In this document: one piece after another, positions 9,481 to 40,975 of the stretch
Layout of the letters: each line of letters starts with the position of its first letter
Numbering within the stretch: the first letter of the stretch is position 1
NCBI RefSeq assembly: GCF_016907545.1
Contig: NZ_JAFBCD010000001.1
Span: 558,001-622,000 of the forward strand
Length of the DNA stretch: 64,000 nt
Source of the DNA: Paenarthrobacter ilicis
GTDB lineage: Bacteria > Actinomycetota > Actinomycetes > Actinomycetales > Micrococcaceae
Direction: 5' to 3'
The notes under the pieces: model-generated
Database searches by the model: none
Told to the model about the DNA's origin: nothing
What the model saw: only the letters and a program-made list of their open reading frames with translations
Made by a program: the position numbers and the translations under genes

Positions 9481-9481
9481 G

Positions 9482-10278: not shown

Positions 10279-10569
10279 ATGACCGAACACGTTGCCGAAG
10301 TATCCGCCTGTAGCGTTGGCAGCTGCGGATTCAACCACGATGGCTGCACTGCCTTTGGCATCACCATTGGTGGAACCCAGGATCACGCTTCCTGCGCAAC
10401 CTTCATCGACACCAACCGGATGGGCGGTCTGCCCAAGGTCCTGGCCCATGTTGGCGCGTGCCAGCGGTCCGAGTGCGTCCACAACAACAACCTCATGTGC
10501 GAGGCACATGACGTCAAGGTGGGTCCCGGCCGGGAAGCCGCCGACTGCCTGACGTACGAGCACTCCTGA
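10279..10569 (+). CDS. DUF1540-type cysteine-rich protein
   Basis: A 96-residue protein with conserved cysteines in two similar blocks (SACSVGSCGFNHDGCTA and GACQRSECVHNNNLMCEA), the layout of DUF1540 proteins, which probably bind metal through Cys/His clusters. No signal peptide. An upstream ATG (10231) would add 16 residues, but AGGAGG stands 6-8 bases before the ATG at 10279, which decides the start. Monocistronic, followed by its own terminator. Function unknown; similar small cytoplasmic proteins are widespread in actinobacteria. Confidence 0.88.
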   Translation: MTEHVAEVSACSVGSCGFNHDGCTAFGITIGGTQDHASCATFIDTNRMGGLPKVLAHVGACQRSECVHNNNLMCEAHDVKVGPGREAADCLTYEHS

Positions 10570-10586
10570 CGGATTTCATTTAACGG

Positions 10587-10614
10587 CGGCCCGTCCTCGT
10601 CCCAGGACGGGCCG
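10587..10614. terminator. Hairpin terminator between DUF1540 and pucR-type genes
   Basis: CGGCCCGTCCT (10587-10597) pairs with AGGACGGGCCG (10604-10614) around a 6-nt loop. It lies between convergent gene ends and can act on both strands. Confidence 0.8.
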
Positions 10615-10642
10615 CTGCTGCCCGAAGCAACCACAGCGGCAA

Positions 10643-26569: not shown

Positions 26570-27514
26570 TCAAGCACCTGCTGGCTCGCGTATGAAGGGC
26601 AGCTCTCCGGCGAGGAGATTTTCCGGCTGGTCTGTGGCGCTGAGGCAAACATTCTCCCGGAGCCATGCGCGCATCCCGGGACCTGTGTCCCCGCGTTCCA
26701 AAGCGACAGTCATCACGGCCTTGAGATAGCTCAGTTTGTCGCCTGTGTCGAAGCGCCGGCCGCGGAAGACCACGCCGTACACGCCGGAACCCGGGCCGTC
26801 GGAAACCGCCAGGGTTTGCAGGGCATCCGTCAGCTGAATTTCCCCTCCGCGGCCTGGAGCCGTCTGCTCAAGGACCTCAAAAACCCGCGGGTGCAGGACA
26901 TAGCGGCCGATGACGGCAAGGTTCGACGGCGCGTGGTCAGGTTCAGGTTTTTCGACGAGGCCGCGGATCCTGAAGGCCCCGTTCACTTCGCCGGAGGCAA
27001 CGTCGGCACAACCGTAGGAACTGATCTGTTCGGGGTCCACCTCCATCAAAGCCACGACTGAGCCCCCAGTGCGTTCCTGGACCTGGGCCATGTCGTCCAG
27101 AATGCTGTCCTGTTCGTCGATCAGGTCATCACCGAGCAACACCGCGAATGGTTCATTGCCGACGTGTGCCCGCGCCCGAAGGACGGCATGGCCCAGCCCT
27201 TTCGGGTCGCCCTGGCGCAGGTAGTGCAGATCCGCCAACGACGAGGACTCCTGGACGGCTGCCAGCTTTGCGTGATCTCCCTTGGCTATGAGGGTTTGCT
27301 CGAGGAAGGGCTCGCGGTCGAAGTGATCTTCCAAAGCCCGCTTGTTCCGCCCCGTGATCATGACGACATCGGTAATACCTGCCCGGACGGCTTCTTCCAC
27401 GACGTACTGGATGGCGGGCTTGTCGACGACGGGGAGCATTTCTTTCGGCGTCGCTTTGGTAGCCGGCAGGAACCTTGTTCCGAGCCCCGCCGCGGGAATG
27501 ACTGCTTTACGCAT
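26570..27514 (-). CDS. galU: UTP-glucose-1-phosphate uridylyltransferase
   Basis: A 314-residue enzyme making UDP-glucose from UTP and glucose 1-phosphate. It has the nucleotide-binding AAGLGTRFLPATKATPKEML motif, DKPAIQYVVEEA, the GHAVLRARAHVG region, VLLGDDLI with the metal aspartate, and RFDTGDKLSYLKA near the C-terminus. The start is ATG 27514 with AAGGAT 6 bases upstream; the longer open frame (to 27631) adds residues not seen in the family. Its start overlaps the end of the adenylation-domain-like gene by 8 bp, so it is the last member of the leftward run that begins at 30780. Supplying UDP-sugar to that run is possible, but galU is also general housekeeping. Confidence 0.95.
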   Translation of the reverse strand: MRKAVIPAAGLGTRFLPATKATPKEMLPVVDKPAIQYVVEEAVRAGITDVVMITGRNKRALEDHFDREPFLEQTLIAKGDHAKLAAVQESSSLADLHYLRQGDPKGLGHAVLRARAHVGNEPFAVLLGDDLIDEQDSILDDMAQVQERTGGSVVALMEVDPEQISSYGCADVASGEVNGAFRIRGLVEKPEPDHAPSNLAVIGRYVLHPRVFEVLEQTAPGRGGEIQLTDALQTLAVSDGPGSGVYGVVFRGRRFDTGDKLSYLKAVMTVALERGDTGPGMRAWLRENVCLSATDQPENLLAGELPFIREPAGA

Positions 27515-28388
27515 GGGAATCCTTTGGTTTGTGGTTGTTACCGGCGACGAAGTCTGCCGGGCAGTAGTCGGACATCTCCTCAACAGCTGTTGCGGGGTCC
27601 CAGTAGTGGAAAATGGCGCACGGGAATGCATCCGCCAGAGTGGTGCGGGAATTGCTGTCGAAGGGTTCGAGGGTGATGACGTCCCGGAACTGGGCGAACA
27701 CGGCCCCCGGGAAGTCGTTGAGCCGCTGGGGAAGCGCCGAAGGCACCACCAGCAGATCCGCTTCGGTCTCGCGGAGGTGCTGCCTCAAGCAGTCTCCGGT
27801 CAGTGATTCGTGGTGGTTGATCAGATCGACTGTTCCACCGGCGGCCAGAACCGCCCACACATCGATCATGGACCCTGGGTGCACCATGCTGGTGAGTCCG
27901 AGTACTGTGCGCGTCGAGAGGCTGAACCTTTTTTCAGCGCCTTGGAGAACATCGACGAACTGCTGGAGATCCACCGCGGTTGTCCCGGCGCCTGACCCCT
28001 CCTGAAGCCATACGGCGGATGAAAAGGATGATGGTGGCCCGGATACGGCGGCGGCTTTGAGGTAGTCCCCGTCAGGGTGCATGAAGCCGGTGGCCTGCTC
28101 AAGGACCGCGTGAGCATGCAGCGGTCCTTCGGCGCTTGACGGGAGCGGAAATCCTGCAGCCCCGAGTGCCCAGAGCGCCGCGGATTCCACAATGGTTTCC
28201 GGGCCCGGGACTGCGCCAAAAGCCACCAGCTCGCCTGCCCGCACGCCTTTGAGCTGCATGGCCAGTGCACGGGTGGTGATCTGTCGGTGCACGGCAGCGT
28301 ACGGGAAGTCATGGCAATTCCACCGAAGCGCCACCTTGCCGGGGTGGTGCCTGGCAGTGTCATGAATGGCTGAAACGAGGGGATGCAC
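27507..28388 (-). CDS. Short, degenerate adenylation (AMP-binding)-domain-like protein
   Basis: About 293 residues resembling the N-terminal half of an acyl-CoA ligase/NRPS adenylation domain: IHDTARHHPGKVALRW, an ALAMQLKGVRAGELVAFGA core, then ESAALWALGAAGFPLP. Where the P-loop (T/S-S-G-T/S-T-G-x-P-K) should be there is only EGSGAGTTAVDL, and the C-terminal domain is missing, so ATP activation is doubtful. The later part (AGGTVDLINHHESL...LVVPSALPQRL) still follows the N-terminal domain order. I chose GTG 28388, with AGGAAGG 8 bases upstream; a TTG at 28454 is possible. It overlaps the luciferase-like gene by 29 bp and galU by 8 bp. It may be a structural or acyl-binding relic rather than a ligase. 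Some actinobacterial proteins of this size show the same truncation. Confidence 0.65.
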   Translation of the reverse strand: MHPLVSAIHDTARHHPGKVALRWNCHDFPYAAVHRQITTRALAMQLKGVRAGELVAFGAVPGPETIVESAALWALGAAGFPLPSSAEGPLHAHAVLEQATGFMHPDGDYLKAAAVSGPPSSFSSAVWLQEGSGAGTTAVDLQQFVDVLQGAEKRFSLSTRTVLGLTSMVHPGSMIDVWAVLAAGGTVDLINHHESLTGDCLRQHLRETEADLLVVPSALPQRLNDFPGAVFAQFRDVITLEPFDSNSRTTLADAFPCAIFHYWDPATAVEEMSDYCPADFVAGNNHKPKDSHA

Positions 28389-29358
28389 TCCTTGCCCCTT
28401 CCTGGGCGCCGTTGTCTGGGGAGGACAGCTTGTCTCCGGGGGACAGGCGGGCAAAGGCGCGGGCGATGAGTGAGTTGGAGTTGATGCGGTCCGCCAACCG
28501 AGGAACAGGACTGCTGATCATCAGTTCATCGACGCCCAGTTCTTCCGCCAGGGTGGCGAGCTGCTGGGCGACGTCTTCCGCGGCGCCAACGATCAGCCGG
28601 CTTTCGTTGTTTTCAGTCCGGCGAAGCTCCTCTGCGGACCAGCCTGAAGGATGGGCGTTGAGGGGGAAGGGTTCGTCCAGGCCGAGGTCTTTTCGTGCCC
28701 TCCAGAGCCGCACCGGGTTGGCGATTTCCTGAGCCTTGGCGTCGGTGTCGGCTGCGATGGCCCGTACCGCAAGCAGTGCCTCCGGTTCCTTCCGCGCACT
28801 ACCGCGATGAAAGTTCTCCCGGTAGTGCGCGAGCGCTGCTCTGCTGCTTCCGGTGTTGAGGAAGTGGGCGTGGGCGTAGCCTGCTCCGGTGGCTGCGGCC
28901 AGGGGCGCCGAGCCGGTGCCGGCACCCAGCAGCCAGATATCCAGGTCATCCCGCCCCTCCGTTCCGGGCATCAGGCCAAGCCGTGCGTGCAGTTCGATGA
29001 TCTTCTCGTTGAAGGAACCCGTACCGCCGCTGCCGGCCCGGCCGACGCCGAGGTTCACGCGGCCCGGATGGAGGGCGGCAAGGATGTCGAAGGACTCAGC
29101 GACCTGCCACGGCTCGTGCAGGCCCAACAGGACCCCGCCGGAACCGACGGTGATCCGCGTGGTGGCATCCAGGACGGCCATGGCCATCAGGGAGGGCGTG
29201 GTGCCGGCGAAGCCCGGGGAGTCGTGGTGTTCGGCGAGCCAGAAGCGGTGGTAGCCGGCTTCCTCGGCAGCGCGGGCCAACGCAATGGTTTCACCCAGGG
29301 CACCGGCCTTGCTGTGGCCGGCGGCGACGGGGGACTGATCCAGGACTGAGAGCTTCAT
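28360..29358 (-). CDS. LLM-class (luciferase-like) flavin-dependent oxidoreductase
   Basis: A 332-residue F420/FMN-dependent oxidoreductase of the bacterial luciferase-like superfamily. It begins MKLSVLDQSPV, followed by GETIALARAAEEAGYHRFWLAEHH, the GGVLLGLHEPWQVAESFDILAALHPGRV barrel segment with NLGVGRAG, and a late VDELMISSP strand. Members oxygenate or reduce diverse small molecules. ATG 29358 overlaps the stop of the 173-residue gene (ATGA); an upstream extension to 29610 only overlaps that gene. Third in the leftward run. Similar enzymes are frequent both in housekeeping metabolism and in biosynthetic clusters, so the substrate is open. Confidence 0.9.
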   Translation of the reverse strand: MKLSVLDQSPVAAGHSKAGALGETIALARAAEEAGYHRFWLAEHHDSPGFAGTTPSLMAMAVLDATTRITVGSGGVLLGLHEPWQVAESFDILAALHPGRVNLGVGRAGSGGTGSFNEKIIELHARLGLMPGTEGRDDLDIWLLGAGTGSAPLAAATGAGYAHAHFLNTGSSRAALAHYRENFHRGSARKEPEALLAVRAIAADTDAKAQEIANPVRLWRARKDLGLDEPFPLNAHPSGWSAEELRRTENNESRLIVGAAEDVAQQLATLAEELGVDELMISSPVPRLADRINSNSLIARAFARLSPGDKLSSPDNGAQEGARSASPRFSHS

Positions 29359-29876
29359 CGGGTCGAGGTGGTGGTGCCGGGCTTGGAAGAGGGAACGATC
29401 GTGTAGTCGGCCAGGAAGACGAGGTTGTGAATCTCGGCCGAGGCGATGGCGCGCAGGATCGGAAGTTCCTGCGCGGCCTGTTCGGGGGTAAACACGTTCA
29501 GCGGCCATTCCTTGACCGTCCCGCCCCGCAGGTGGGGATGATGGAAGCCCCGTCCGTAGTAGGCGTGAATGGTGATCGGGGGGATCCCCGCAGCGCGTTG
29601 TTCTGCCCATCCGAGCGTCCAGGAGCAGATCAGTCCGGTGTCCGGTGACCGGCCAACGCCGGAGGATTCCACGGTGCCCTGCCCCAGCATGAGGGCATTG
29701 TTGACTTCATCAAGAGCCTGGCGTGCGTAGGGTTCCAGCAGATCAACGGCGGATCGGAAGAGCGCTTCCTTGTCCTGCCGGCTGACGGCCTCTCCGTGGG
29801 TTCCATCGCGGAGGTCAGCGAAGTGCCGCAGCAGGGCTTTGGTGTAGGCCGCCTCCGGGCTGGTGGTGGTGCTCAT
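29355..29876 (-). CDS. Unknown 173-residue protein
   Basis: I do not recognise this protein. It is 173 residues, without signal peptide or membrane span. The N-terminal half is helical (EAAYTKALLRHFADLRDG, LLEPYARQALDEVNNAL). The second half holds a histidine-rich patch, HAYYGRGFHHPHLRG, followed by KEWPLNVFTPEQAAQELPILRAIAS and a hydrophobic LVFLADYTIV strand. The clustered histidines could bind metal. ATG 29876 begins one base after the hydrolase stop, with GGAG in that gene's last codons; its own stop overlaps the luciferase-like start. It is therefore locked into the run between the hydrolase and the oxidoreductase, and a shared pathway step is likely. Confidence 0.75.
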   Translation of the reverse strand: MSTTTSPEAAYTKALLRHFADLRDGTHGEAVSRQDKEALFRSAVDLLEPYARQALDEVNNALMLGQGTVESSGVGRSPDTGLICSWTLGWAEQRAAGIPPITIHAYYGRGFHHPHLRGGTVKEWPLNVFTPEQAAQELPILRAIASAEIHNLVFLADYTIVPSSKPGTTTSTR

Positions 29877-29877
29877 C

Positions 29878-30780
29878 TCATGCTCCTTCAGTTGTAGCTG
29901 GTTGGTTGTCTTTGAGGCTCAGGCGGGTTTGGATCCACCGATGGACCGGGTTCGCCGGCGAGCTGTCCAGGAAGTGTCCGTGGGCGACGGCCGGGCTTAC
30001 TTCCAGATCCACAGGGACCGATGATGCTGCCAACCGCTGGGCGAACTGCTCGACGTCGTCACGCACCGGGTCGGCCGCGCCGACGATAAGTGAGACAGGA
30101 CAGAGCCCAGTGAGTTTGGTGGCGTGCAGCGGCGAAAGGTACAGCCTTTCCCGGAGGTCAGTTTCGGAGCCGGCGTACTCACCCCACGCATCCAGCAGCA
30201 TTGATCGGGGCGGGAAGGACCTGCTGTGCCGGTAGGAAGCTGCGCTGCACTCGGGATCCAACGGGGGATAGGCCAGGACTTGTCCGTGAAGCGGCAGTCC
30301 ATTGTCCCGGAACCAGAGTGCGACTCCCGCAGCCAGGGTGCCACCTGCGCTGTCACCGCCCACCAGGACCGGGTGGTTGTACGTTTGCTGTGCCCAGAGA
30401 GTGGCTGCGGCGATGTCCATCACGGCGGTGGGGTGGAGCCACCGGGGAGCAAGCCGGTAGCCCACGCTGATGATCCTTGCAGTGCCCAGAGAAGCCAGAG
30501 CGGCGCACGCTTCATGCCAGCCCTCAATCGATCCACGGGTCCAGCTGCCGCCATGGGCCCACACCAGTGTTACGGACGGGCGGGCTGCGGCTTCATATAT
30601 GCGCAACCGGATATCCGCACCGTCCGCCCCCTGCACAAAGAGGTCCGACCACGGCACAAAGAGGTCCGACCACGGCACAGTGATGTCCGGCCGCGGCGCA
30701 TTGCTGTCCGGCCGCGGCGCAGGGGGCCGTTTTTCGCGGAGACGCGGGGCCCCGGGCAGCGCAGAAGTATCTGAAGTCAT
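29878..30780 (-). CDS. Alpha/beta hydrolase, HSL-type esterase/lipase
   Basis: A 300-residue serine hydrolase. The oxyanion motif is VWAHGGSWTRG, the nucleophile elbow GGDSAGGTLA, the acid is probably in GAADPVRDD, and the histidine in VAHGHFLD. ATG 30780 has AAGGAT 7 bases upstream; a GTG at 30795 is the alternative. The first 55 residues are proline-rich and include a heptad-like repeat (PDITVPW, SDLFVPW, SDLFVQG) encoded by a degenerate 21-bp tandem array, an unusual leader for this family. First gene of the leftward run, divergent from the cupin-like gene across a 181-bp region with the TRTCACTGVCAGGG motif. It probably cleaves an ester or lactone; substrate unknown. Confidence 0.9.
   Translation of the reverse strand: MTSDTSALPGAPRLREKRPPAPRPDSNAPRPDITVPWSDLFVPWSDLFVQGADGADIRLRIYEAAARPSVTLVWAHGGSWTRGSIEGWHEACAALASLGTARIISVGYRLAPRWLHPTAVMDIAAATLWAQQTYNHPVLVGGDSAGGTLAAGVALWFRDNGLPLHGQVLAYPPLDPECSAASYRHSRSFPPRSMLLDAWGEYAGSETDLRERLYLSPLHATKLTGLCPVSLIVGAADPVRDDVEQFAQRLAASSVPVDLEVSPAVAHGHFLDSSPANPVHRWIQTRLSLKDNQPATTEGA
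30633..30716. repeat. Four degenerate 21-bp tandem units inside the hydrolase gene
   Basis: Units start at 30633, 30654, 30675 and 30696. The first two are identical (GCACAAAGAGGTCCGACCAC plus G); units 3 and 4 diverge to GCACAGTGATG and GCGCATTGCTG with the ending TCCGGCCGCG. Being 21 bp they keep frame and encode seven-residue repeats in the hydrolase N-terminus. Confidence 0.85.
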
Positions 30781-30961: not shown

Positions 30962-31672
30962 ATGATGACCTTGGGGGTAATTGTGGGAACTGTCCTATTG
31001 GAAGAACTGTCCTTCAGCAGCGAGTTGACTCATGCCGTCGTGCTGCGGGATGTCCAGCAGTACGAGGTGACAGGACCCGTCGTCGTGGTGAATCTGGCTG
31101 GTAGCGACGCGTTCGTCGGTCACGGACAGTCGGCGGCATTGCCGGCCTTTAGCTCCACGATTCTCCACGGTGGTTCCATCACAGGGGCCCTGCTCGCGGT
31201 GCTGTCCGTGGAGACGGTCCAGAACGGGGAACAGCGCGCAAGGGATCTCGGATGGGCCGACTTCTATGGTGCCGAGGCTGGACAGCCGGTCCTGCTGCGC
31301 TCCACGCAGGACACGCTGGGGACGGTCCTGCTGGACCCCGCCCTGGTTCTGCGACAGCCCGGGCTGACGCCGGGAGAGAAGGCCTTCACTGTGAAGGCCA
31401 ATCTGTGGTTCAGCCCCGCAGGAACCGACTGCGGAATACACAACCGGCATGATTTCATCGAGGTCCACACCCAGATTTCCGGGCTTGGACGCATGCAGAA
31501 GTTCACCTCGCAGGAACACGGGTCCCTTTATGAGGACCAGCTGTTGAGCCCTGGCAATACCAACCCTGTGCCGTTCTGTCTGGAACGGGAGGGTACCTTC
31601 ACCTACCCGTGGCACCAGTACCGGGCCGACACAGACTGTATCTGGCTCGCGCTGGAATACCACCTCAGCTAA
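30962..31672 (+). CDS. Cupin-like protein, candidate AUDH cupin half
   Basis: A 236-residue protein with no signal peptide. The C-terminal half looks like a cupin metal site: HNRHDFIEVHTQISGLGRMQKF supplies an HDxxEVH pattern, then a GSLYEDQLLSPG turn and the closing FTYPWHQYRADTDCIWLALEYH strands. The N-terminal 120 residues are beta-rich (VVVVNLAGSDAFVG and later LLRSTQDTLGTVLLD). Start ATG 30962 (or 30965); the ribosome site is weak, so a leaderless or later start is possible. It heads a rightward run containing an FG-GAP propeller resembling fungal aldos-2-ulose dehydratase (AUDH), an enzyme that combines a propeller with cupin domains; this gene could be the cupin part. That link is my inference. 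Confidence 0.65.
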   Translation: MMTLGVIVGTVLLEELSFSSELTHAVVLRDVQQYEVTGPVVVVNLAGSDAFVGHGQSAALPAFSSTILHGGSITGALLAVLSVETVQNGEQRARDLGWADFYGAEAGQPVLLRSTQDTLGTVLLDPALVLRQPGLTPGEKAFTVKANLWFSPAGTDCGIHNRHDFIEVHTQISGLGRMQKFTSQEHGSLYEDQLLSPGNTNPVPFCLEREGTFTYPWHQYRADTDCIWLALEYHLS

Positions 31673-31739
31673 TCACTCCGTCTCATATCCGCCGGCGACC
31701 ACCGGCAGGTCCTTCACGCCCATTTTCAGGAGAGCAGCA

Positions 31740-32921
31740 ATGAAAAACATTGGAATTGTCTTCGGTACACGACCCGAAGCTGTGAAATTCGCCCCCATCA
31801 TCCACGCCCTGATCCAGGATCCGCGTTTCCGCCCGGTGCTGATTTCCACGGGCCAGCACCGTGAAATGCTGGACAGCACTTTGGAGGAATTCGGCATCAC
31901 CCCTGATGTTGAACTGCGCATCATGAAAGAACAGCAGACCCTCTCGCAGGTGACCCACCGGATACTGGAAGGACTCTGCTCCGGAGACCATATGGAAGGC
32001 CTCGACGCCGTCATGGTCCACGGGGACACCGCCACCACCCTTGCCGGCGCCCTGGCCGCACTGCACCGCTCCGTGCCCATCATCCACGTCGAGGCCGGCC
32101 TGCGAAGCGGGAACAATTACTCGCCGTTCCCGGAGGAAGTGAACCGGAAGCTGGTGGCGCAGATCGCCGCACTGCATCTGGCCCCCACTCCGGGAAACAG
32201 CGCCAACCTGATCCGTGAAGGCGTCCGGGAACACTCCATCGTGATCACCGGGAACACCATAGTTGATGCCCTGCAGTGGGGCATGAACAACCTTCGCGGC
32301 TACGGGGAACCGGCGTTGGCGGATCTCGACAATGATCCCCGCAAGGTGATCCTGTCCACCACCCACAGGCGCGAAAGCCATGGCCGTCCGATGCGGGAGA
32401 TTGCCGCGGCACTGGCTGACATCGCCCGGCGACGGGAAGACGTCCGCATCGTTGTGCCACTTCACCTCAACCCCAAGGTACGCGAAGTCATGGTTCCGGT
32501 CCTGAGCGGTATCCCCAACGTGGACATGGTGGACCCGCTTCCCTACCTGAGCTTCTGCAGGCTCTTGCAGCGCAGCGATCTGATCCTCTCGGACAGCTCG
32601 GGGGCCGAAGAAGAAGGCCCTGCGCTGGGTAAGCCGACGCTGGTGTTGCGCGAAATCACCGAACGCAGCGAATCGATCCTGACGGGAAGTTCGCGCCTGG
32701 TCAGCCGAAACCGTGGCCAGATCGTTCACGAGGTGGAACGCCTGCTCGATGATGCGAACGCCTACATGGAGATGGCCACAGCGATTAACCCCTACGGTGA
32801 TGGCAAAGCCACCGAACGAACCATTGCTGCGGTGGCCCACTACTTCAAGTTGGGCCCGGCCGCCATGCCGTTCGTGCCCGGTGCAGATTTCGTGCCGGCA
32901 CAGACGCGAACCGCAGCATGA
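31740..32921 (+). CDS. wecB: Non-hydrolysing UDP-N-acetylglucosamine 2-epimerase
   Basis: A 393-residue epimerase interconverting UDP-GlcNAc and UDP-ManNAc. Signatures: GTRPEAVKFAPIIHAL, the STGQHREML loop, VHGDTATTLAGALAA, the HVEAGLRSGNNYSPFPEEVNR active-site stretch, and the UDP-binding LSDSSGAEEEGPALGKP with ITERSESILTGSSRLV. Length is normal. AGGAG lies 9 bases before the ATG; its stop overlaps the MFS gene by 4 bp. It sits second in the coupled rightward run, so either the run builds a ManNAc-containing product or the epimerase chemistry was recruited for a related sugar nucleotide. WecB-type symbol by family; the exact role here is open. Confidence 0.93.
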   Translation: MKNIGIVFGTRPEAVKFAPIIHALIQDPRFRPVLISTGQHREMLDSTLEEFGITPDVELRIMKEQQTLSQVTHRILEGLCSGDHMEGLDAVMVHGDTATTLAGALAALHRSVPIIHVEAGLRSGNNYSPFPEEVNRKLVAQIAALHLAPTPGNSANLIREGVREHSIVITGNTIVDALQWGMNNLRGYGEPALADLDNDPRKVILSTTHRRESHGRPMREIAAALADIARRREDVRIVVPLHLNPKVREVMVPVLSGIPNVDMVDPLPYLSFCRLLQRSDLILSDSSGAEEEGPALGKPTLVLREITERSESILTGSSRLVSRNRGQIVHEVERLLDDANAYMEMATAINPYGDGKATERTIAAVAHYFKLGPAAMPFVPGADFVPAQTRTAA

Positions 32922-34144
32922 CGAGGCTGCCGTTGGGCCTGCTGGCCCTCGCGGTGGGAGGCTTCGGCATCGGCCTCACCGAGTTCGTCATCCTGGGCCT
33001 GTTGCCGGAGGTGGCCGCGGATTTCTCCGTCAGCATCCCGGTCGCAGGGCACCTGGTTTCCGGCTACGCACTCAGCGTGGCCGTTGGAGGGGTGGTGGTG
33101 ACTGCAGCGACGGCGGCCCTTCGCCCCAAGACGGTCCTCTGCGCCTTGATGGTGCTCTTCATTCTGGGAAACCTCCTGTCGGCAGTGGCAGGGGACTACG
33201 CCACGATGTTTGCCGGCCGAATTGTGGCCGCACTGTGCCACGGGGCGTTCTTTGGGATTGGTGCCGTGTTGGCTTCGAACCTGGTCACGCCCGATCGCAA
33301 AGCCAGGGCCATCTCCATCATGTTCGCCGGGCTGACCATCGCGAACGTCATCGGCGTTCCGCTGGGCACGTTCCTGGGCCAACAGTTCGGCTGGCGGTCC
33401 ACCTTCTGGGCAATCACCATCGTGGGGGTCATCGCCCTGACCGGGCTGATCGCCTACATCCCTGCGCAGGACGCGGTAGAACGCGGACCTGGACAGCTGC
33501 GTCGTGAGCTCGGGGCCTTCGCGTCCGGCCAGGTATGGCTGTCCATTCTGGTCACCGTCTTTGGGTTCGGGGCCATGTTCGGTGCCTTCACCTACATTGC
33601 GCCGATGCTCACCTCACTGGCCGGGATGCCGGCCTCGGCCGTGCCGTGGATGCTGGTCATCTTCGGTGCCGGGCTGTTCACCGGGAACATCCTCGGCGGC
33701 AAAGCCGCAGACGGAAACCTGGACAAATCCCTGCTGATCCTCCTGTCGGCACTGACCTTTGTCCTGCTGGTGTTCACCGTGACCGTCCACAACCCGTGGG
33801 GTGCAGCGGTGACGTTGTTCCTCCTCGGCGCCGTCGGATTCGCGGCAGTGCCCGGCATGCAGACCCGTGTCCTGTCCTTCGCCCACCGGGCGCCAACACT
33901 GGCCTCCGGTGTCAATATCTCCGCATTCAACCTCGGCAATGCGATCGGCGCCCACCTCGGCGGGACAACCATCGCGGCTGGGTTTGGCCTGGCCTCGCCC
34001 ATCTGGGTAGGCGCAGGCCTGGCCATCATCGCCGTAGCTCTCATTGCGTCAGCGTCGCTGGCGCTGCAACGAACGAAGACCCCACCCGCCGGCACGCCGG
34101 AAACAGCACCATCACCCGCACTCACACGAAAGGTACTCTCATGA
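32918..34144 (+). CDS. MFS transporter, DHA1/AraJ-type exporter
   Basis: A 408-residue, 12-span permease. It begins MTRLPLGLLALAVGGFGIGL with TEFVILGLLPEVAADF in span 1, the signature of AraJ/DHA1 drug-H+ antiporters, and has GALSV-type loops and SIMFAGLTIANVIGVPLGTFLGQ in span 5 (antiporter motif C region). Relatives export sugars or drugs. It overlaps the epimerase stop (ATGA) and the propeller gene start (ATGA), so it is fully coupled to the sugar-related genes and probably exports their product. Confidence 0.9.
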   Translation: MTRLPLGLLALAVGGFGIGLTEFVILGLLPEVAADFSVSIPVAGHLVSGYALSVAVGGVVVTAATAALRPKTVLCALMVLFILGNLLSAVAGDYATMFAGRIVAALCHGAFFGIGAVLASNLVTPDRKARAISIMFAGLTIANVIGVPLGTFLGQQFGWRSTFWAITIVGVIALTGLIAYIPAQDAVERGPGQLRRELGAFASGQVWLSILVTVFGFGAMFGAFTYIAPMLTSLAGMPASAVPWMLVIFGAGLFTGNILGGKAADGNLDKSLLILLSALTFVLLVFTVTVHNPWGAAVTLFLLGAVGFAAVPGMQTRVLSFAHRAPTLASGVNISAFNLGNAIGAHLGGTTIAAGFGLASPIWVGAGLAIIAVALIASASLALQRTKTPPAGTPETAPSPALTRKVLS

Positions 34145-35412
34145 CCTCAACGGCGCTCCCCAAGACCACACCCACCTTGGACGTCACCGAACCGGAGTTC
34201 GGAACCCAGACAGTCACGGACTTCCTGCGCGATGGCTATTGGCTGGAAGCGGCAGACATCGACGGCGACGGCAGGCCCGACCTCGTCGGCTACGGCCTGA
34301 AAGTCGGTGAAATCTACTGGTACAAGAACCCCACCTGGGAAAAGAAGCTGGTGCTCGACAAGATCAAGGAACCCGTCGGCATGGACTTCGGTGACATCAC
34401 CGGTGACGGCACCACGGACCTGGTGGTTTGCTACCAGCTTTACGGTCCTGGCGGAACGATCCACCACGCCGACCCCGAAGGCGGCAAGATCGACTGGCTG
34501 GAAAACCCCGGCAACCCGTCAGAAGCTACCGAAAACTGGAAACGGCACTACGTTGGGCGCGCCATCGGCATGCACCGCCTGCGCGTGGGTCACTTCACGC
34601 GCACTGACAAAATCCAGATCATCGGGTTCCCGATCGTTGCCGTCGAAGACGTCCACGCAGTCCTTCCCGTGGTGCTTTTCACCCCCACGGATGACCCTCG
34701 CGCCGAATGGGACAAGGAAATCATCAGCGACTCTGACTTCCGAATGATCCACGGCGTCGCCAAGAAGGGCGGGCTGATTCCCGGCTCACCACTGGACTCA
34801 ATCCTCATGGCCTCCGATGAAGGCGTCACCTGGCTCTACTACGACCAGGACAACCGCACGTGGGCGTGGCAGCACATCGGAGACGGTGAAGAAAGCCAAT
34901 TCGAGAAGACCACCTTCAAAGGCAGCGGTGACGTCGACGGCGGACGCATCGGGGATGACCCCCTTGCCTACGTCGCAGCCATCGAACCTTTCCACGGCAA
35001 CACCGTTGCCGTGTACGTGCGCAGTGGGGGAGACGCTGAGGCTGCGGGCTGGACCCGGCACCTGCTGGACATTTACGGGGACCCGAACGAGAACGGTGAA
35101 GGCCCCGGCCACACTGTCATGTGCCGCGATTTCGATGGGGACGGAGACGACGAATTCCTGATCGGCCTGCGTGGTCCCGAGCCGTGGCAAGGCGCGTACT
35201 ACTACAAAGCGGTAGATCTGGCCAAGGGACTGTTTCTGAAGTGGAAGGTCTCCGGGGAATCCATCGCCCGGATCGTTGCCGGTGACTTCAACGGCGACGG
35301 CGCGGAAGATTTTGCCACCATCTCCTACTCGGTCCAGCACTACTTCGTTGCCCCCAAAGCCGAAATCACCCTGCACCCGAACAACACCGTCCAGCGCGGA
35401 GGATCCAACTGA
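34141..35412 (+). CDS. FG-GAP/VCBS beta-propeller protein, AUDH-propeller-like
   Basis: A 423-residue protein without signal peptide, made of repeated beta blades with calcium-type loops DIDGDGRPDLVG, DITGDGTTDLVV, DFDGDGDDEFLIG and DFNGDGAEDFAT. Other segments include GYWLEAADI, KVGEIYWYKNP, HRLRVGHF and FRMIHGVAKKG. Cytoplasmic FG-GAP propellers of this size are unusual; the arrangement resembles the catalytic propeller of the fungal aldos-2-ulose dehydratase/isomerase, a sugar-dehydrating enzyme. ATG 34141 overlaps the exporter stop; its own stop overlaps the oxidase start. The open frame extends leftwards to 33535 but only within the exporter gene. An enzymatic role in sugar chemistry is inferred from resemblance and from the neighbours. 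Confidence 0.8.
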   Translation: MTSTALPKTTPTLDVTEPEFGTQTVTDFLRDGYWLEAADIDGDGRPDLVGYGLKVGEIYWYKNPTWEKKLVLDKIKEPVGMDFGDITGDGTTDLVVCYQLYGPGGTIHHADPEGGKIDWLENPGNPSEATENWKRHYVGRAIGMHRLRVGHFTRTDKIQIIGFPIVAVEDVHAVLPVVLFTPTDDPRAEWDKEIISDSDFRMIHGVAKKGGLIPGSPLDSILMASDEGVTWLYYDQDNRTWAWQHIGDGEESQFEKTTFKGSGDVDGGRIGDDPLAYVAAIEPFHGNTVAVYVRSGGDAEAAGWTRHLLDIYGDPNENGEGPGHTVMCRDFDGDGDDEFLIGLRGPEPWQGAYYYKAVDLAKGLFLKWKVSGESIARIVAGDFNGDGAEDFATISYSVQHYFVAPKAEITLHPNNTVQRGGSN

Positions 35413-37109
35413 TGACAACCACAGAAAAGACCGGTGTTGGAAGACGCTTCTTCATGGCCGGTTCCGCCGGCACCATCGCGGCAGCCTCCTTGGCCGCACT
35501 CGGAACCGCCAATGCCCCGAAAGCCCAGGCCGCTGCGGGCTCCGCAACGGTGCCTGACGGCTCGGTGATCACCTCCGGGGACTCCCGCTATGCGGACCTC
35601 ATGACAGGCAACAACCAGCGCTTCGTCTCCCATCCCGACTACGTCCGGCTCATCACCAGCACCAAGGACGCAGAGGATGCCGTCCGCGAAGCAGTCCGCA
35701 CCGGGAAGAAGGTCTCGGTCCGAAGCGGCGGCCACTGCTTCGCCGACTTTGTCTGCAACCCCGCCGTCCAGGTCATCCTCGATGTGTCCCCGATGAACGC
35801 GGTGTACTACGACAAGAAGATGGGCGCCTTTGCGGTGGAACCCGGCGCCCGCCTCATGAACGTCTACGAAACGCTGTACAAGAACTGGGGCGTCACCGTT
35901 CCCGGAGGCATCTGCTACAGCGTGGGTGCGGGAGGGCACATTGCGGGTGGCGGCTACGGTCTGCTCTCACGCTCGCACGGCTTGGTGGTGGACCATCTCT
36001 ACGCCGTTGAAGTGGTGACGGTGGACGCTCGTCGTAGAGTCCGCACCGTGACCGCCACCCGCGACGACAAAGGTGAGCTCGGTGACCTGTGGTGGGCGCA
36101 CACCGGCGGGGGCGGCGGCAACTGGGGCGTCGTCACCAAGTACTGGTTCCGGTCACCGGGAACACAGGGCAAGAAACCCTCAGACCAGCTGGTCAAGGCA
36201 CCCTCCACCGTTTTGGTCAGTGCCATCTCCCTTCCATGGGACCAGCTGGATGAAACCAAATTCCGGCGCCTCATCACCAACTTCGGAACATGGCACGAGA
36301 AATACCGCCAACCGGGCACCCCGGAATCGCATCTGAGCAGCCTCTTCAACGTCAGCTCCAAGGCCCACGGAAGCCTGGGGATGTTCACCCAGATCGACGC
36401 GGCAGCCCCGGACGCCAAGGGCGTGATGGAACGCTATGTGGCGGCAATCCTCGACGGGGTTGCCATCACCGCCGAACCCGTGGAGAAGCCCAACGGGGAA
36501 ATCCCGGCTATGCCGGAGTTTTTCAAGACCCGGGAAATCCCGTGGTTGCAAGCAACCCGCTTGGTGGGGACCGATAATCCCGTCATCACCAACCCCACCA
36601 GTCGCGGCGCCCACAAATCGGCCTATCTGAACCGGAAGTTCACCGATGACCAGATCGCGGTGCTCTACGGGCAGATGAGCCGGCCGGACTTCACCAATCC
36701 CAACACGATGCTGGTTCTCTTCTCCTTCGGCGGGCAGGTCAACGCCGTAGCCCCTGACGCCACAGCAAACGCCCAGCGCCAATCCGCGTTCAAGTTCTGC
36801 CTCCAAACCTTTTGGTCGGATTCGGCAGATGACGACTTCTACCTGGGCTGGGAACGGGAAACCTACGAAGGCATGTTCAAAACCACGGGCGGGGTTCCCG
36901 TCCCTGGTGACCAGCTCGACGGCTGCTACATCAACTATCCGGACGTCGATGTTGCCACCACGGATCACAACAGCTCCGGTGTTGGCTGGCAGACCCTGTA
37001 CTTCAAGGGCAACTACCCCCGGCTCCAGCGTGCCAAGGCCAGTTGGGACCCGACCGACTACTTCACCCACAGCCTCGGCATCGAACTCCCGGCAGGACGT
37101 GCATCATGA
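35412..37109 (+). CDS. Tat-exported BBE-type FAD oxidase
   Basis: A 565-residue flavoprotein. A twin-arginine signal (GRRFFMAGSAGTIAAASLAA, cleaved near AQAA) suggests folded export with cofactor. The PCMH-type FAD domain has RSGGHCFADF with His about 108 and GICYSVGAGGHIAGGGYG with Cys about 168; this pair anchors FAD by two covalent bonds in berberine-bridge-enzyme relatives such as gluco-oligosaccharide oxidase. The C-terminus has the BBE signature: CYINYPDVD, WQTLYFKGNYPRLQRAKASW and DPTDYFTH. The start overlaps the propeller stop (TGATG) and the stop overlaps the acyltransferase ATG. Oxidation of a sugar or phenolic outside the membrane is likely. Confidence 0.92.
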   Translation: MTTTEKTGVGRRFFMAGSAGTIAAASLAALGTANAPKAQAAAGSATVPDGSVITSGDSRYADLMTGNNQRFVSHPDYVRLITSTKDAEDAVREAVRTGKKVSVRSGGHCFADFVCNPAVQVILDVSPMNAVYYDKKMGAFAVEPGARLMNVYETLYKNWGVTVPGGICYSVGAGGHIAGGGYGLLSRSHGLVVDHLYAVEVVTVDARRRVRTVTATRDDKGELGDLWWAHTGGGGGNWGVVTKYWFRSPGTQGKKPSDQLVKAPSTVLVSAISLPWDQLDETKFRRLITNFGTWHEKYRQPGTPESHLSSLFNVSSKAHGSLGMFTQIDAAAPDAKGVMERYVAAILDGVAITAEPVEKPNGEIPAMPEFFKTREIPWLQATRLVGTDNPVITNPTSRGAHKSAYLNRKFTDDQIAVLYGQMSRPDFTNPNTMLVLFSFGGQVNAVAPDATANAQRQSAFKFCLQTFWSDSADDDFYLGWERETYEGMFKTTGGVPVPGDQLDGCYINYPDVDVATTDHNSSGVGWQTLYFKGNYPRLQRAKASWDPTDYFTHSLGIELPAGRAS

Positions 37110-38293
37110 CCGCCCCTGTCCCCGAGGCGACCACCGCCCGTCCCCGGCTCAGTAAATTGCCGTCCCTGACCGGATTGCGATTCTTCGCCGCGCTGTTGGT
37201 GTTCTTCTTCCACATCACCCTGTCCAACTCACCCATTCCGCCCAACGATCCCATCAACCCGTTCGCCGACGCCGAGCTCGGATCAACCCTTGAATGGCTG
37301 GTCAGCAAAGCAGGGTACGTTGGGGTCTCCTTCTTCTTCGTCCTGAGTGGCTTCCTGCTGGCGTGGGCATCGAAACCGGGGGAGCCAAAGCGGCAATTCT
37401 GGCGGCGCAGATTGTTGAAGATCTTCCCCAACCACTTGGTGATGTGGGTGCTGTCGATGATCCTGTTCGCGGCCGCCATCAACCCTCCACTGGGATGGAT
37501 CAGCAACCTTTTCCTGGTGAACTCCTTCATTCCGGATGCCTCCGTCTACGTGGCGGTTAACCCGCCGTCATGGACGCTGAACAGCGAACTGCTTTTCTAC
37601 CTGCTGTTCCCTTTGCTGATGATCCCCATCCGGAAGATTCCCGGCAACCGTTTGTGGGTGTGGGCGTGGGCCACTGTCGGCGCGATGATCGCGGTACAGC
37701 TGGTCACCACGTACCTGATTCCCGCCACGCCGGTGTCTGCCCTGACTCCCATCTCTGAAGCCCAGTTCTGGTTCGGGTACATTTTCCCGCCCGCACGGCT
37801 GTTCGAGTTCATTCTCGGCTCCATCCTGGCCAGGATCGTCCTGTCAGGGCGCTGGGTTCCCTTGAAGATGTGGCACACCCTGGTTCTTTGCGTCGCCGGC
37901 TACGTCGCCGCGATGATGGTCCCGTTCGTATACTCCTTCAACGTGGCCACCATCGTCCCGGTCGCAGCGATCATCTGCACTGTCGCAACCCGGGACATCG
38001 CGGGCCATACCGGCTTCCTCGGCTCCAAACCCATGGTTTGGCTGGGGAACATCTCCTTTGGCTTCTACCTCTGCCAGGGAGTGGTGATCTTCTACGGCCG
38101 CATCCTCCTGGGCAACCAGGTGTACCCAACGCCTGTCGCATTGCTGGTGGTGGCCGGATTCTTCGTGGCTACGCTGTTGGGCGGATGGGCACTTTACGCG
38201 CTCGTGGAGAAGCCCGTGATGGACCGTTGGGCACGTCCGCGACCCAAGCAGGTCCAGCCTGAGCCCGCTCGGGCCACTGCGAGCGTGGTGTAG
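37106..38293 (+). CDS. Membrane acyltransferase (family 3)
   Basis: A 395-residue integral membrane O-acyltransferase of the Acyltransferase_3/OafA group. The first segment has KLPSLTGLRFFAALLVFFFH with the catalytic-type histidine, then GYVGVSFFFVLSGFLLAWA and about ten spans, an RRLLKIFPNHL loop and a basic C-terminus. Such enzymes acetylate or acylate sugars, antibiotics or cell-surface glycans. ATG 37106 overlaps the oxidase stop by 4 bp. Last gene of the rightward run and followed by a terminator, so acylation may be a finishing step on the run's product. Confidence 0.9.
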   Translation: MTAPVPEATTARPRLSKLPSLTGLRFFAALLVFFFHITLSNSPIPPNDPINPFADAELGSTLEWLVSKAGYVGVSFFFVLSGFLLAWASKPGEPKRQFWRRRLLKIFPNHLVMWVLSMILFAAAINPPLGWISNLFLVNSFIPDASVYVAVNPPSWTLNSELLFYLLFPLLMIPIRKIPGNRLWVWAWATVGAMIAVQLVTTYLIPATPVSALTPISEAQFWFGYIFPPARLFEFILGSILARIVLSGRWVPLKMWHTLVLCVAGYVAAMMVPFVYSFNVATIVPVAAIICTVATRDIAGHTGFLGSKPMVWLGNISFGFYLCQGVVIFYGRILLGNQVYPTPVALLVVAGFFVATLLGGWALYALVEKPVMDRWARPRPKQVQPEPARATASVV

Positions 38294-38363: not shown

Positions 38364-39245
38364 CTACCTGGCTGAGATGCGTTGGGCTTCCTCCACCACG
38401 CTGGCATCGCTGGAAGTCAACAATTGCAGGGCCTCGGCCGCGGGCGTGCCGGGATCAGCGGTGTACATCAGGATCCGGTGTCCCGATTCGTCGGGCGGTG
38501 TCAGGACCTCGAAGTTGAGCTCAATATCGCCTACCTCGGGGTGATGCATGTACTTCAGCCCGGACATGCAGTTCTCTACAGGGTGCCGTGCCCACAAACT
38601 GGCGAACTCTTCACTGTTCATGGTTAACTCGCCAACCAAGGACGCGAGTTCCGGGTCATCGGTGGCGCGGCCCGCGACCAGTCGCAGCGATGACACGGCA
38701 CGGGTGGCTTCTTCGAGCCATCGTGTGTACAGCTCACGGGTGTGGCGGTCCAGGAACAAGAGCCGCGTCATGTTGGGCCTTGTTGAAGGCGTCTCGGGCG
38801 CAGCGAAATCCAGGTGACCAGCCACAAGCCTATGACCAATCCGGTTCCACGCGAGCACTTCGCTGCGGCGTCCCAGGACAACGGCGGGTGTGTTGGACAT
38901 CGACTGGATAAGGCGCAATGTGCCGGGCCTTACCTTGTCCGGCTTGGTCAATGTTCGCCTTTTGGTGGTTCCTGGGCGGGCAAGATTGAAAAGATGCGCA
39001 CGCTCGTCGGTGTTCAGGTTCAGTGCCCGGGCGATTGCATCGATGACCGCTTCGGAGGCGTTGTTACTGAGGCCCTGCTCCAAACGGGTGTAGTACGTAT
39101 TGCTGACGCCGGCCAACATGGCCAGTTCTTCCCTGCGGAGGCCGGGTACGCGGCGGATGCCGTAATTCAGAAGGCCAACGTCCTCTGGCTGTAAGGCAGC
39201 TCTTCGGACGCGAAGGAACTCCCCAAGTTCACTTAGATTACTCAT
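38364..39245 (-). CDS. XRE-family regulator with MmyB-like ligand domain
   Basis: A 293-residue DNA-binding protein. The N-terminal XRE helix-turn-helix (about 8-80) includes GLRREELAMLAGVSNTYYTR and LEQGLSNNASEAVIDAIARA. The rest matches the MmyB-like ligand-binding domain: VVLGRRSEVLAWNRIGHRLV, RLLFLDRHTRELYTRWLEEA, GELTMNSEEFASLWARHPVE, and the closing GDIELNFEVLTPPDESGHRI. MmyB-type regulators are known in actinobacteria near antibiotic-related genes and usually act on a divergent neighbour. ATG 39245 is chosen over an open extension to 39374. It is divergent from the DHA2 exporter, and the TRTCACTGVCAGGG motif occurs on both strands between them and again in the 30.8-kb promoter. Confidence 0.93.
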   Translation of the reverse strand: MSNLSELGEFLRVRRAALQPEDVGLLNYGIRRVPGLRREELAMLAGVSNTYYTRLEQGLSNNASEAVIDAIARALNLNTDERAHLFNLARPGTTKRRTLTKPDKVRPGTLRLIQSMSNTPAVVLGRRSEVLAWNRIGHRLVAGHLDFAAPETPSTRPNMTRLLFLDRHTRELYTRWLEEATRAVSSLRLVAGRATDDPELASLVGELTMNSEEFASLWARHPVENCMSGLKYMHHPEVGDIELNFEVLTPPDESGHRILMYTADPGTPAAEALQLLTSSDASVVEEAQRISAR

Positions 39246-39282
39246 GGGCCCATTCTGCCGCTCTTGCGCGGCCCTGTCCTGT

Positions 39283-39296
39283 CCCTGCCAGTGACA
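39283..39296 (-). promoter_or_regulatory. Shared motif TGTCACTGGCAGGG facing the XRE gene
   Basis: Minus-strand copy of TRTCACTGVCAGGG, 38 bp before the XRE start, suggesting autoregulation. See the copies at 39369-39382 and 30830-30843. Confidence 0.6.
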
Positions 39297-39368
39297 CCCT
39301 GATGCGACGTCGCACAAGTTCTTGTGACAAGACAAAGGCGCCGAATCCGGGTATGGCGCTGTCCCGCC

Positions 39369-39382
39369 TGTCACTGCCAGGG
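39369..39382 (+). promoter_or_regulatory. Shared motif TGTCACTGCCAGGG facing the DHA2 exporter
   Basis: Plus-strand copy, about 100 bp before the exporter ATG. It is set in an extended context GCCTGTCACTGCCAGGGG that closely matches the 30827-30845 stretch GCCTATCACTGACAGGGGG. Confidence 0.6.
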
Positions 39383-39484
39383 GTAGGCAGAAGGGGGTGT
39401 GGTTGATCCCCCTGCGTTCCGTGAGTGTGGAGTTGTGAAGATGCCGTCCGCGGGCGGCAACCCCTCCAGAGAAGGAACACTCCC

Positions 39485-40975
39485 ATGACCACGCAACCGG
39501 ATGTCACCACAGGACCCGGCGTTCCACCCTTGACCGAAGCCGGGCGGCCCACTGAATTTTCACAACGGGACGAACCTTCGGGACGGATGACTGGCCGCCA
39601 ACGGCTGGCACTCATTGTCCTGCTCGCGGCGAGCTTTACCCTCGCCGTTGACTTCTCGATCCTCAACGTCGCACTCCCGGCGATTGGCGCCGACGTCGGA
39701 TTCAGCCTCGAGAACCTCCAATGGATCGCGACGGCGTTCGCGCTCTGCGCCGCCGGGCTGACGTTGTTGTTCGGGCGTGTTGCGGACATCGCGGGCCGCC
39801 GCAGGATGTTCATCATCGGTATGGCCTTGCTGGGGGCAGCATCGCTCGCCGGTGGCTTGGCTACCGACCCCGCTTTGTTGCTCATCGCCCGCGTCGGCCA
39901 AGGCGTTGCGACGGCGATAGTCGTTCCGGCTGCCTTGTCCCTGCTGCTGGCCTCGTTCCCGGAAGGTCCGCTGCGCGATAAAGCATTGGGCCTCAATGGA
40001 TCCCTGATGGCTGCCGGGTTCACCACAGGGGCAATCCTCGGCGGACTGCTGACGGACCTGCTGAGCTGGCGCTGGGCCTTCTTCATCAACGTTCCCGTGG
40101 CCATCGCTGTGCTGATCATTGCTCCGATTGTCCTGGCCGAGAGCAAGCCGGCCACCAAGTTGAGGCTGGATGTTCCGGGTGCCATCACGGTGACCCTCGG
40201 CCTTCTGGCCCTGGTATTTGGTTTGACGAACGCCGCTGAGCACTCCTGGGCCGACCCGCTGACGTTGGGCTCCCTCGCAGCAGCTGTGGTGTTGTTCGTT
40301 GCTTTCGTGGCGGTCGAACGCAAAGCCGCGTCACCTCTGGTGCCGCTGGAGATCCTGAAGCGCTCCACGGTGGCATGGGGAAACATAGCGGGCATCCTTG
40401 CCTTCGTCACCGAAACGTCCTTGGTGTTCCTGTTGACCCTGTACCTGCAGCAGGTCCTCGGCTACACCCCGCTCGGTGCCGGCCTGGCCTTCGCGGTCCT
40501 GGGTCTCGGAACTGTGCTGGGCGGCGTTCTGGGCCCCAAGGTCATCGGAAAGATCGGCAACAAGAAGGCGATTGTCTACGGATTCATCGTCCAGGCAATC
40601 GCCACGGGTGCCCTGGTGTTGCTCAGTGCCGACCCAGCCTCCATCGCCCTGCTGCTGGTCGCCACGTTCGTAGGGGGCGTGGCCAACCTCGTGGTCATCG
40701 TCGGCTTCATGGTCACCGCAACCTCCGGCCTGCCTGATGACGAGCAAGGCCTTGCTACCGGGTTGGCAACCATGAGCCAGCAGGTCGGCATCACCATGGG
40801 TATCCCGATCATGAGCGCCATCTTCACCGCACAGATTCTCGCCATCGGGAACAACGATGCCCCGGCCGTGCTCAGCGGTGTCACCACAGCCATCTGGGTG
40901 AATGCGGGCCTGTGCCTGCTCACAGCACTGGCGGTGGGACTGTTCCTCCGCAAGCCCGCACCGGCCATCAGCTAA
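39485..40975 (+). CDS. DHA2-type multidrug MFS exporter (14 spans)
   Basis: A 496-residue drug-H+ antiporter-2 family permease with 14 predicted spans. Characteristic segments: LAVDFSILNVALPAIGADVG in span 1, LLFGRVADIAGRRRMF (motif A) after span 2, ARVGQGVATAIVVPAALSLL in span 4 and LGGLLTDLLSWRWAFFINVP (motif C) in span 5. AAGGA 9 bases before ATG 39485 fixes the start; an upstream in-frame start is not needed. It diverges from the XRE regulator, which probably represses or activates it. Likely exports a toxic or self-made compound. Confidence 0.93.
   Translation: MTTQPDVTTGPGVPPLTEAGRPTEFSQRDEPSGRMTGRQRLALIVLLAASFTLAVDFSILNVALPAIGADVGFSLENLQWIATAFALCAAGLTLLFGRVADIAGRRRMFIIGMALLGAASLAGGLATDPALLLIARVGQGVATAIVVPAALSLLLASFPEGPLRDKALGLNGSLMAAGFTTGAILGGLLTDLLSWRWAFFINVPVAIAVLIIAPIVLAESKPATKLRLDVPGAITVTLGLLALVFGLTNAAEHSWADPLTLGSLAAAVVLFVAFVAVERKAASPLVPLEILKRSTVAWGNIAGILAFVTETSLVFLLTLYLQQVLGYTPLGAGLAFAVLGLGTVLGGVLGPKVIGKIGNKKAIVYGFIVQAIATGALVLLSADPASIALLLVATFVGGVANLVVIVGFMVTATSGLPDDEQGLATGLATMSQQVGITMGIPIMSAIFTAQILAIGNNDAPAVLSGVTTAIWVNAGLCLLTALAVGLFLRKPAPAIS

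Follow-up and report, generated by a model that had tools for sequence, protein, structure and literature searches.

In fungi, aldos-2-ulose dehydratase/isomerase (AUDH) acts on two substrates, glucosone and 1,5-anhydrofructose, and the enzyme holds catalytic zinc in its propeller and in its cupin and carries a C-terminal lectin domain. The enol of 1,5-anhydrofructose, which arises from an elimination, leads to ascopyrone and microthecin (PMC12441222). A second system of relevance is KasQ, which forms uridine diphosphate (UDP)-N-acetylmannosamine (UDP-ManNAc) first, whereupon 2-acetamidoglucal and UDP accumulate, and for which a crystal structure with bound UDP-glucose has been described (PMC8869731). 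We report here on a gene cluster of Paenarthrobacter ilicis in which genes for a stand-alone AUDH-type propeller and a stand-alone cupin lie next to a gene for an enzyme of the WecB family. The cluster is located in a stretch of 64,000 nucleotides (contig NZ_JAFBCD010000001.1, positions 558,001 to 622,000), referred to below as the window. We consider it fairly probable that these genes direct the biosynthesis of a small molecule by AUDH-type chemistry, leading from UDP-glucose via 1,5-anhydrofructose and ascopyrone M to a microthecin-type product.

The initial annotation of the window had suggested that the propeller and cupin of AUDH are divided here between two genes, and this idea was borne out by homology and by gene linkage, with strong support in the case of the propeller and weaker support in that of the cupin; both showed similarity to AUDH. 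Thirteen genes of the window were scanned against Pfam, and 12 of these also against NCBIfam. The propeller (423 amino acids) passed the cutoff of PF22301 (AUDH_beta_propeller; E 4.4e-55), and a phmmer search returned AUDH (4a7k; E 9.5e-72, query residues 10-411 on chain residues 12-429) as the sole distinct Protein Data Bank (PDB) sequence at E ≤ 0.1. Alignment with AUDH showed that its residues H155, H215, H295, and H337 correspond to histidine in 27/27 cluster propellers and in 8/8 other bacterial propellers; in the window protein, these are H145, H204, H285, and H324. A 2012 study of the AUDH structure reportedly proposed His155 as catalytic and located zinc in the propeller. We take His155 to be the active-site residue of the propeller, and all 35 bacterial rows have histidine at that place. 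For H215, H295, and H337, we infer a role as zinc ligands, and the conserved histidines are compatible with a metal site. Taken together, the propeller is very likely a keto-sugar dehydratase. A propeller tree, which included fungal AUDH on a very long branch, needed two changes for the wecB type, and the single change of one clade was seen in 19% of the bootstrap trees, so that nothing was concluded from it.

The cupin has 236 amino acids, and Pfam revealed no further domain in either protein. When 24 cupin members were inspected, AUDH_Cupin (PF18637) was the only Pfam family matched at E 0.01 by any of them (14 of the 24, with a best E of 6.9e-6). The match of the window cupin to this profile, which the initial annotation had put forward as a check, was present, although its 21.1 bits missed the cutoff of 25. 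The structure comparison proposed at the same time was made with an AlphaFold2 model based on 13 sequences (predicted local distance difference test [pLDDT], 72.4; predicted template modeling score, 0.75). In VIA-align, run on the Foldseek candidates (997 chains), AUDH chains ranked first and second, namely, 4a7y (Z 7.4; 175 of 236 cupin residues aligned to chain residues 455-733) and 4a7k (Z 7.2; 171 of 236 residues aligned to 455-734), followed by a third row with Z 4.6. AUDH was the protein named beforehand, and its two rows stand clear of the others and span the cupin model. Furthermore, G154, T155, D156, C157, H160, H163, E167, and H169 were invariant in the alignment of the 24 members, and the conserved segment that contains them is a candidate metal site. 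The cupin is likely to be the partner isomerase of the propeller. A PDB search with the single cupin sequence returned JmjC matches only (E 0.63-0.9), which were rejected.

The cluster is shared by scattered relatives. Genes for the cupin, WecB, propeller, oxidase, and acyltransferase were present in a shared order at 12 of 12 loci found by contig search in Arthrobacter, Promicromonospora, Curtobacterium, Cryobacterium, and Antribacter; the grouping is therefore more than chance. At these loci, the major facilitator superfamily (MFS) gene was unmatched in L008 and L010, the oxidase was rearranged in L012, and the acyltransferase was split in L009. The L012 oxidase (10263-11380; Antribacter gilvus) is internally inverted, with two parts on opposite strands, which may be real or an assembly fault, and the L009 acyltransferase match (6586-7733; Cryobacterium sp. 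MLB-32) is spread across two frames. PF22301 was found in 3 of 396 genomes of a phylum sample (own genome counted, one under the cutoff), in 6 of 206 genomes of the genus (own genome counted), and in 19 of 343 Streptomyces genomes. Two further loci from the genus, L024 and L025, resemble the window cluster in type. Among the 19 Streptomyces loci (L051-L069), 11 contain wecB and the cupin with the propeller, and six contain a pyranose oxidase and an IolE-like gene. The fetched stretch of L067 (propeller 9106-10365) holds neither set of partners, and L069 (9264-9779) has a partial propeller. A short-chain dehydrogenase/reductase was matched at all 11 Streptomyces wecB loci, with one of these matches truncated where the contig stops. 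The Streptomyces plasmids L014 and L016 are of the wecB type with an altered gene order, and L016 repeats L058.

The propeller and the cupin are separate genes at the window and at the related wecB-type loci. A search with the 24-member alignment detected the cupin in 11 of 336 Streptomyces genomes, which are identical to the 11 with wecB beside the propeller; it scored eight candidates per genome, and a weak extra copy could escape it. In a targeted search in which all candidates were scored, the cupin was found in 4/4 wecB-type genomes and in 0/9 other propeller genomes (one of them 60% complete).

The WecB-family enzyme of the cluster is distinct from the canonical one. A second, canonical WecB is encoded elsewhere in the genome (C1:3045484) and is 48% identical to the cluster copy. 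The 27 cluster copies, of which two are identical and several close, formed a single clade with respect to 30 others from the phylum and Escherichia coli (support 100/100). All of the E. coli residues R10, K15, D95, E117, E131, R135, H213, S290, and E296, which are catalytic or substrate-binding (PMC10622841, PMC11464976), are kept in 27/27 cluster copies. The same holds for the allosteric-pocket residues Q38, H39, Q65, R214, and H246 (numbering transferred). The position of E. coli R308, which by transfer of numbering is the stabilizing salt-bridge arginine of PMC10622841, is Arg in 15 of the 27 copies; the other 12 carry Gly, Ser, or Ala there. On the other hand, G291S, T97A, A297G, and V304T are fixed in 27/27 cluster copies, and 0/30 of the others have these letters. 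G291S turns the phosphate-binding motif SGG into SSG at a position that is Gly in 30/30 others, and it is through this loop (SGG) that KasQ binds the UDP phosphates (PMC8869731). In the WecB reaction, 2-acetamidoglucal and UDP are thermodynamically favored, and the enzyme must trap them (PMC11464976); given that the free glucal and UDP are favored and that trapping is required, a lyase need only cease trapping.

The gene galU, which encodes UTP-glucose-1-phosphate uridylyltransferase, was linked to these clusters. It was observed at 10 of the 11 Streptomyces wecB loci, the exception being L052, which stops at a contig end, and in 0/8 of the other Streptomyces propeller stretches. A Fisher test (10/11 versus 0/7, with L069 left out) gave a p of 0.00025, which is nominal only, as L053-L056 are close relatives. 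In each of 10 Streptomyces wecB-cluster genomes (all but G637), a galU above the TIGR01099 cutoff lies away from the cluster, in addition to the copy at the cluster. The genome of P. ilicis also has two galU genes above the cutoff, at 26570-27514 of the window and at C1:2768561, and within the genus, galU is present at the locus of the window and at L002, L013, and L025. Because the clusters carry this extra galU, UDP-glucose is a likelier substrate of the cluster WecB than UDP-N-acetylglucosamine (UDP-GlcNAc). The initial annotation had left the epimerase and its UDP-ManNAc production unexplained. In view of the clade, the SSG motif, and the galU linkage, we now read the enzyme as probably the maker of the AUDH substrate, and the WecB/GalU route is a new proposal that would account for it. 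There is slightly better than an even chance that the enzyme supplies 1,5-anhydrofructose from UDP-glucose. We are evenly divided on the more specific proposal that it is a UDP-glucose lyase, in which a 2-epimerase fold has evolved to release the glucal intermediate, so that a bacterium would obtain 1,5-anhydrofructose from a nucleotide sugar, independently of GH31 enzymes, for an AUDH-type antibiotic pathway.

We infer all reactions of the pathway, their order, and the product. A dedicated GalU would provide UDP-glucose, on which the cluster WecB would run the first half-reaction only, an anti-elimination of UDP, and then release the product. From UDP-glucose, this product would be 2-hydroxy-D-glucal, an enol that would tautomerize to 1,5-anhydro-D-fructose, the AUDH substrate. 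The propeller would dehydrate 1,5-anhydrofructose across C3/C4 to ascopyrone M, which the cupin would isomerize to microthecin or an isomer. Finally, the membrane acyltransferase would acylate this compound, the MFS proteins would export it, and the flavin oxidase would oxidize it outside the cell. The end product could be an acylated or oxidized C6 pyranone or a cyclopentenone. Going by formula, pentenomycin I and microthecin are isomers (C6H8O4), and C6H6O4 applies to both dehydropentenomycin and kojic acid.

Several observations weigh against this proposal. Since the cluster WecB keeps the catalytic and allosteric residues of a working 2-epimerase, a stop at the glucal cannot be read from sequence alone. 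KasQ binds UDP-glucose, and yet isotope feeding indicates UDP-GlcNAc (PMC8869731). Three of the 10 cluster galU genes (G618, G686, and G695) fell short of the cutoff of 326.8, with scores of 313-320 bits. Not every Micrococcales locus has a galU nearby, as no match was obtained in the fetched flanks of the genus loci L003, L011, and L024 or in those of L004-L010 and L012. As for the cupin, its Z scores are below 8, and the tool cautions that values of 7-8 are common for models that lack a clear match. Foldseek alone gave nothing at E ≤ 0.001, with AUDH absent from the first 50 rows, and no significant PDB sequence match resulted from either the single sequence or the 24-member profile (nothing at E up to 1). 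The cupin also remains under the Pfam cutoff, and PF18637 detects 0 of 336 Streptomyces genomes although 11 hold the cupin; with no positive control, the model is too distant from these cupins for use. Lastly, the AlphaFold2 model of the propeller, built from 13 close sequences, is poor (pLDDT 48.7), and the AUDH-type seven-bladed VCBS/FG-GAP fold is assigned by sequence only.

The best-surviving alternative is that the cluster WecB acts on UDP-GlcNAc and releases 2-acetamidoglucal, from which the propeller and cupin would make an acetamido pyranone. WecB enzymes pass through this compound as an intermediate, and the kasugamycin-cluster enzyme KasQ gradually releases it (PMC8869731). The cluster WecB also keeps its catalytic residues and passes TIGR00236. 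However, the extra gene at 10/11 Streptomyces loci is galU, which relates to UDP-glucose, and the known AUDH substrates are nitrogen-free 2-keto sugars. We regard this alternative as unlikely.

A further alternative, advanced by the initial annotation, is that the flavin adenine dinucleotide (FAD) oxidase makes the oxidized sugar from a free sugar, which the propeller and cupin turn into a cortalcerone-like product; WecB would then have a role elsewhere. There is a precedent in the fungal conversion to cortalcerone by pyranose 2-oxidase and AUDH (title of reference 13 in PMC11650716), and other bacterial propellers adjoin a pyranose oxidase. This assignment of the oxidase was not supported. 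It has FAD_binding_4 and BBE domains, and its closest solved relatives in a PDB search are TamL, AknOx, a putative hexose oxidase, CrmK, and GilR, most of which are tailoring oxidases; its His108/Cys168 anchors, GGHC and GGIC, align with GGHC and GGAC of TamL. It was matched in 9 of the 11 Streptomyces wecB loci. No match was obtained at L061, where the contig measures 7.4 kb, or at L059, where the stretch of 11.4 kb (left edge cut by the fetch) holds genes for the propeller, cupin, acyltransferase, and MFS protein as well as wecB and galU. An RR motif near its N terminus, seen by eye, is Tat-like (twin-arginine translocation), whereas none was seen by eye on the propeller or cupin. The linkage of wecB and cupin would also be left without explanation, and this alternative appears quite unlikely. 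The oxidase is probably a late tailoring step outside the cell, and the combination of outside oxidation and acylation is as easily right as wrong. A pyranose oxidase above the TIGR02462 cutoff was found in 0/14 wecB-type genomes, six of which had weaker matches; the best of these is a GMC oxidase of the P. ilicis genome (G000:C1:521143-522333; 166.4 of 544.9 bits), approximately 36 kb before the window.

It is very unlikely that the role of WecB is to supply UDP-ManNAc, or some other UDP-hexose, to a product that is glycosylated or located at the surface while the AUDH-like proteins process a side sugar: the catalytic residues are kept and the acyltransferase belongs to a family used on surface sugars, but the genome has another canonical WecB, none of the 13 scanned window genes is a glycosyltransferase, and the cupin and propeller accompany this WecB clade in 11/11 Streptomyces genomes.

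Apart from the wecB type, there seems to be a second bacterial route by which this propeller family is supplied with substrate. A pyranose oxidase, an IolE-like inosose dehydratase, and the propeller are adjacent, without wecB or cupin, at the Streptomyces loci L062-L066 and L068 (propeller at approximately 9.1-10.5 kb) and at L029 (112-4149). At L029, the oxidase was identified as a pyranose oxidase both by TIGR02462 (618.5 bits, cutoff 544.9) and by its PDB match (9fl2, E 2.6e-157), and its IolE-like neighbor scored 360.7 bits (cutoff 290). Genes related to these two occur at the six Streptomyces loci, with oxidases 51-54% identical to that of L029, and the cupin was absent from the seven searched genomes of this type. 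These loci possibly represent a bacterial glucosone pathway, and the two feeding routes would match the two AUDH substrates. On a Persicobacter plasmid (L015:8423-13215), a packed row consists of a GMC oxidase, a ferritin-like protein, a small unknown protein, and an AUDH propeller, followed by large open reading frames; the pyranose_ox match of the GMC oxidase is partial and does not reach the cutoff.

The coordinates of the window features are given in Table 1. Every gene listed by the initial annotation was found, as were the overlaps it described from the epimerase on (4 bp between wecB and the MFS gene, 4 bp between the latter and the propeller, 1 bp between propeller and oxidase, and 4 bp between oxidase and acyltransferase, with ATG at 37106); cupin and wecB are 67 bp apart. 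The MmyB-type regulator was confirmed, and together with the EmrB-like MFS gene it forms the end of the region. The unit is larger than first described. It extends into a divergent row on the minus strand (30780-26570), in which the hydrolase, a 173-amino-acid protein, and luciferase-like, AMP-binding-like, and galU genes are 1 bp apart or overlap. The EmrB-like transporter was matched in 11/12 contig-search loci and in 8/11 Streptomyces wecB loci.

Table 1. Features of the cluster and its surroundings, by position in the window
Feature	Position	Strand	Evidence and remarks
galU, UTP-glucose-1-phosphate uridylyltransferase, second copy of the genome	26570-27514	-	TIGR01099 339.9 bits, cutoff 326.8; ATG 27514
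Short AMP-binding-like protein	27507-28388	-	PF00501 E 7.5e-9; start GTG 28388 or TTG 28454
Luciferase-like monooxygenase, MsnO8 family	28360-29358	-	TIGR03558 278.4 bits, cutoff 166.95; ATG 29358
Conserved protein, 173 amino acids, no family match	29355-29876	-	Partners 60-98% identical in other clusters
Alpha/beta hydrolase (Abhydrolase_3)	29878-30780	-	PF07859 E 2.5e-43; ATG 30780
Stand-alone AUDH-type cupin, candidate isomerase	30962-31672	+	PF18637 E 2.4e-4; predicted fold
Conserved cupin segment, residues 154-181	31421-31504	+	GTDCxxHxxHxFxExHTQxxGxGRMQxF; candidate metal site
WecB-family enzyme, proposed UDP-glucose lyase	31740-32921	+	PF02350; TIGR00236 406.8 bits, cutoff 210.15
Ser287 codon (E. 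coli Gly291), SGG-to-SSG change	32598-32600	+	Ser in 27/27 cluster copies
MFS exporter, Cmx/AraJ-like	32918-34144	+	NF033135 337.3 bits, under cutoff 400
Stand-alone AUDH beta-propeller, proposed aldos-2-ulose / 1,5-anhydrofructose dehydratase	34141-35412	+	PF22301; 4a7k
FAD oxidase, BBE family	35412-37109	+	PF01565, PF08031; best PDB match TamL 2y08, E 6.6e-148
Membrane acyltransferase (Acyl_transf_3)	37106-38293	+	PF01757 E 1e-29
MmyB-type regulator	38364-39374	-	PF17765 E 9.8e-54
EmrB-like MFS transporter	39425-40975	+	PF07690 E 9.1e-55

Among the minus-strand genes, galU overlaps the preceding AMP-binding-like gene by 8 bp. The AMP-binding-like protein, situated between the luciferase-like gene and galU, has approximately 300 amino acids, and the usual adenylating enzymes are longer; it was matched in five other genus loci, namely, L002, L011 (36%), L013, L024, and L025. 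The 173-amino-acid protein, for which Pfam and NCBIfam gave nothing at E 0.01, stays beside the hydrolase and luciferase-like genes in many clusters. With a chloramphenicol exporter model, the exporter scored 337 bits where 400 are required, and the hydrolase matched a chloramphenicol hydrolase model far under the cutoff; both matches probably reflect general similarity. A promoter scan detected no sigma-70-like sites (2.2 expected), and 13 terminator-like sites were found (10.5 expected).

In the literature searched, which did not extend to most subscription journals, we found no description of a bacterial cluster of the AUDH type. The titles and abstract openings retrieved mention no gene cluster for pentenomycin, and a search for WecB, UDP-glucose, and a glucal in a biosynthetic cluster gave KasQ only. 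A query for cyclopentenone returned no match, and one for VCBS and epimerase returned reports unrelated by title. If the proposal is correct, Actinobacteria would possess the fungal anhydrofructose/AUDH antimicrobial pathway in compact, clustered form and with an initial step that is new, a sugar-nucleotide epimerase fold would be tied to lyase chemistry, and a class of very small, easily missed sugar-derived products would be predicted.

In comparison with fungal AUDH (4a7k/4a7y/4a7z), the bacterial propeller is homologous over its length, and the cupin model matches residues 455-734. The fungal enzyme is a single polypeptide, whereas the bacterial cluster has two genes and no pyranose oxidase, and its front end apparently consists of WecB and GalU. 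The C-terminal lectin domain of the fungal enzyme was not found in the bacterial proteins of 423 and 236 amino acids. The pyranose oxidase/IolE-like loci have the same PF22301 propeller, but these two genes replace wecB and there is no cupin. Compared to TamL, AknOx, CrmK, and GilR, its closest solved relatives, the cluster oxidase presumably acts on a small, sugar-derived substrate. The cluster WecB shares family and catalytic residues with WecB/MnaA and differs from it in its separate clade, in the SSG motif and the T97A, A297G, and V304T changes, and in its linkage to AUDH-like genes and, often, to galU. KasQ belongs to this family and to an antibiotic cluster, and it lets the glucal out (PMC8869731). 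The elimination to the enol of 1,5-anhydrofructose would be common to the cluster WecB and the GH31 alpha-1,4-glucan lyase, which belongs to an unrelated protein family and draws on starch or glycogen, whereas the source for the cluster enzyme, if our reading is right, would be UDP-glucose.

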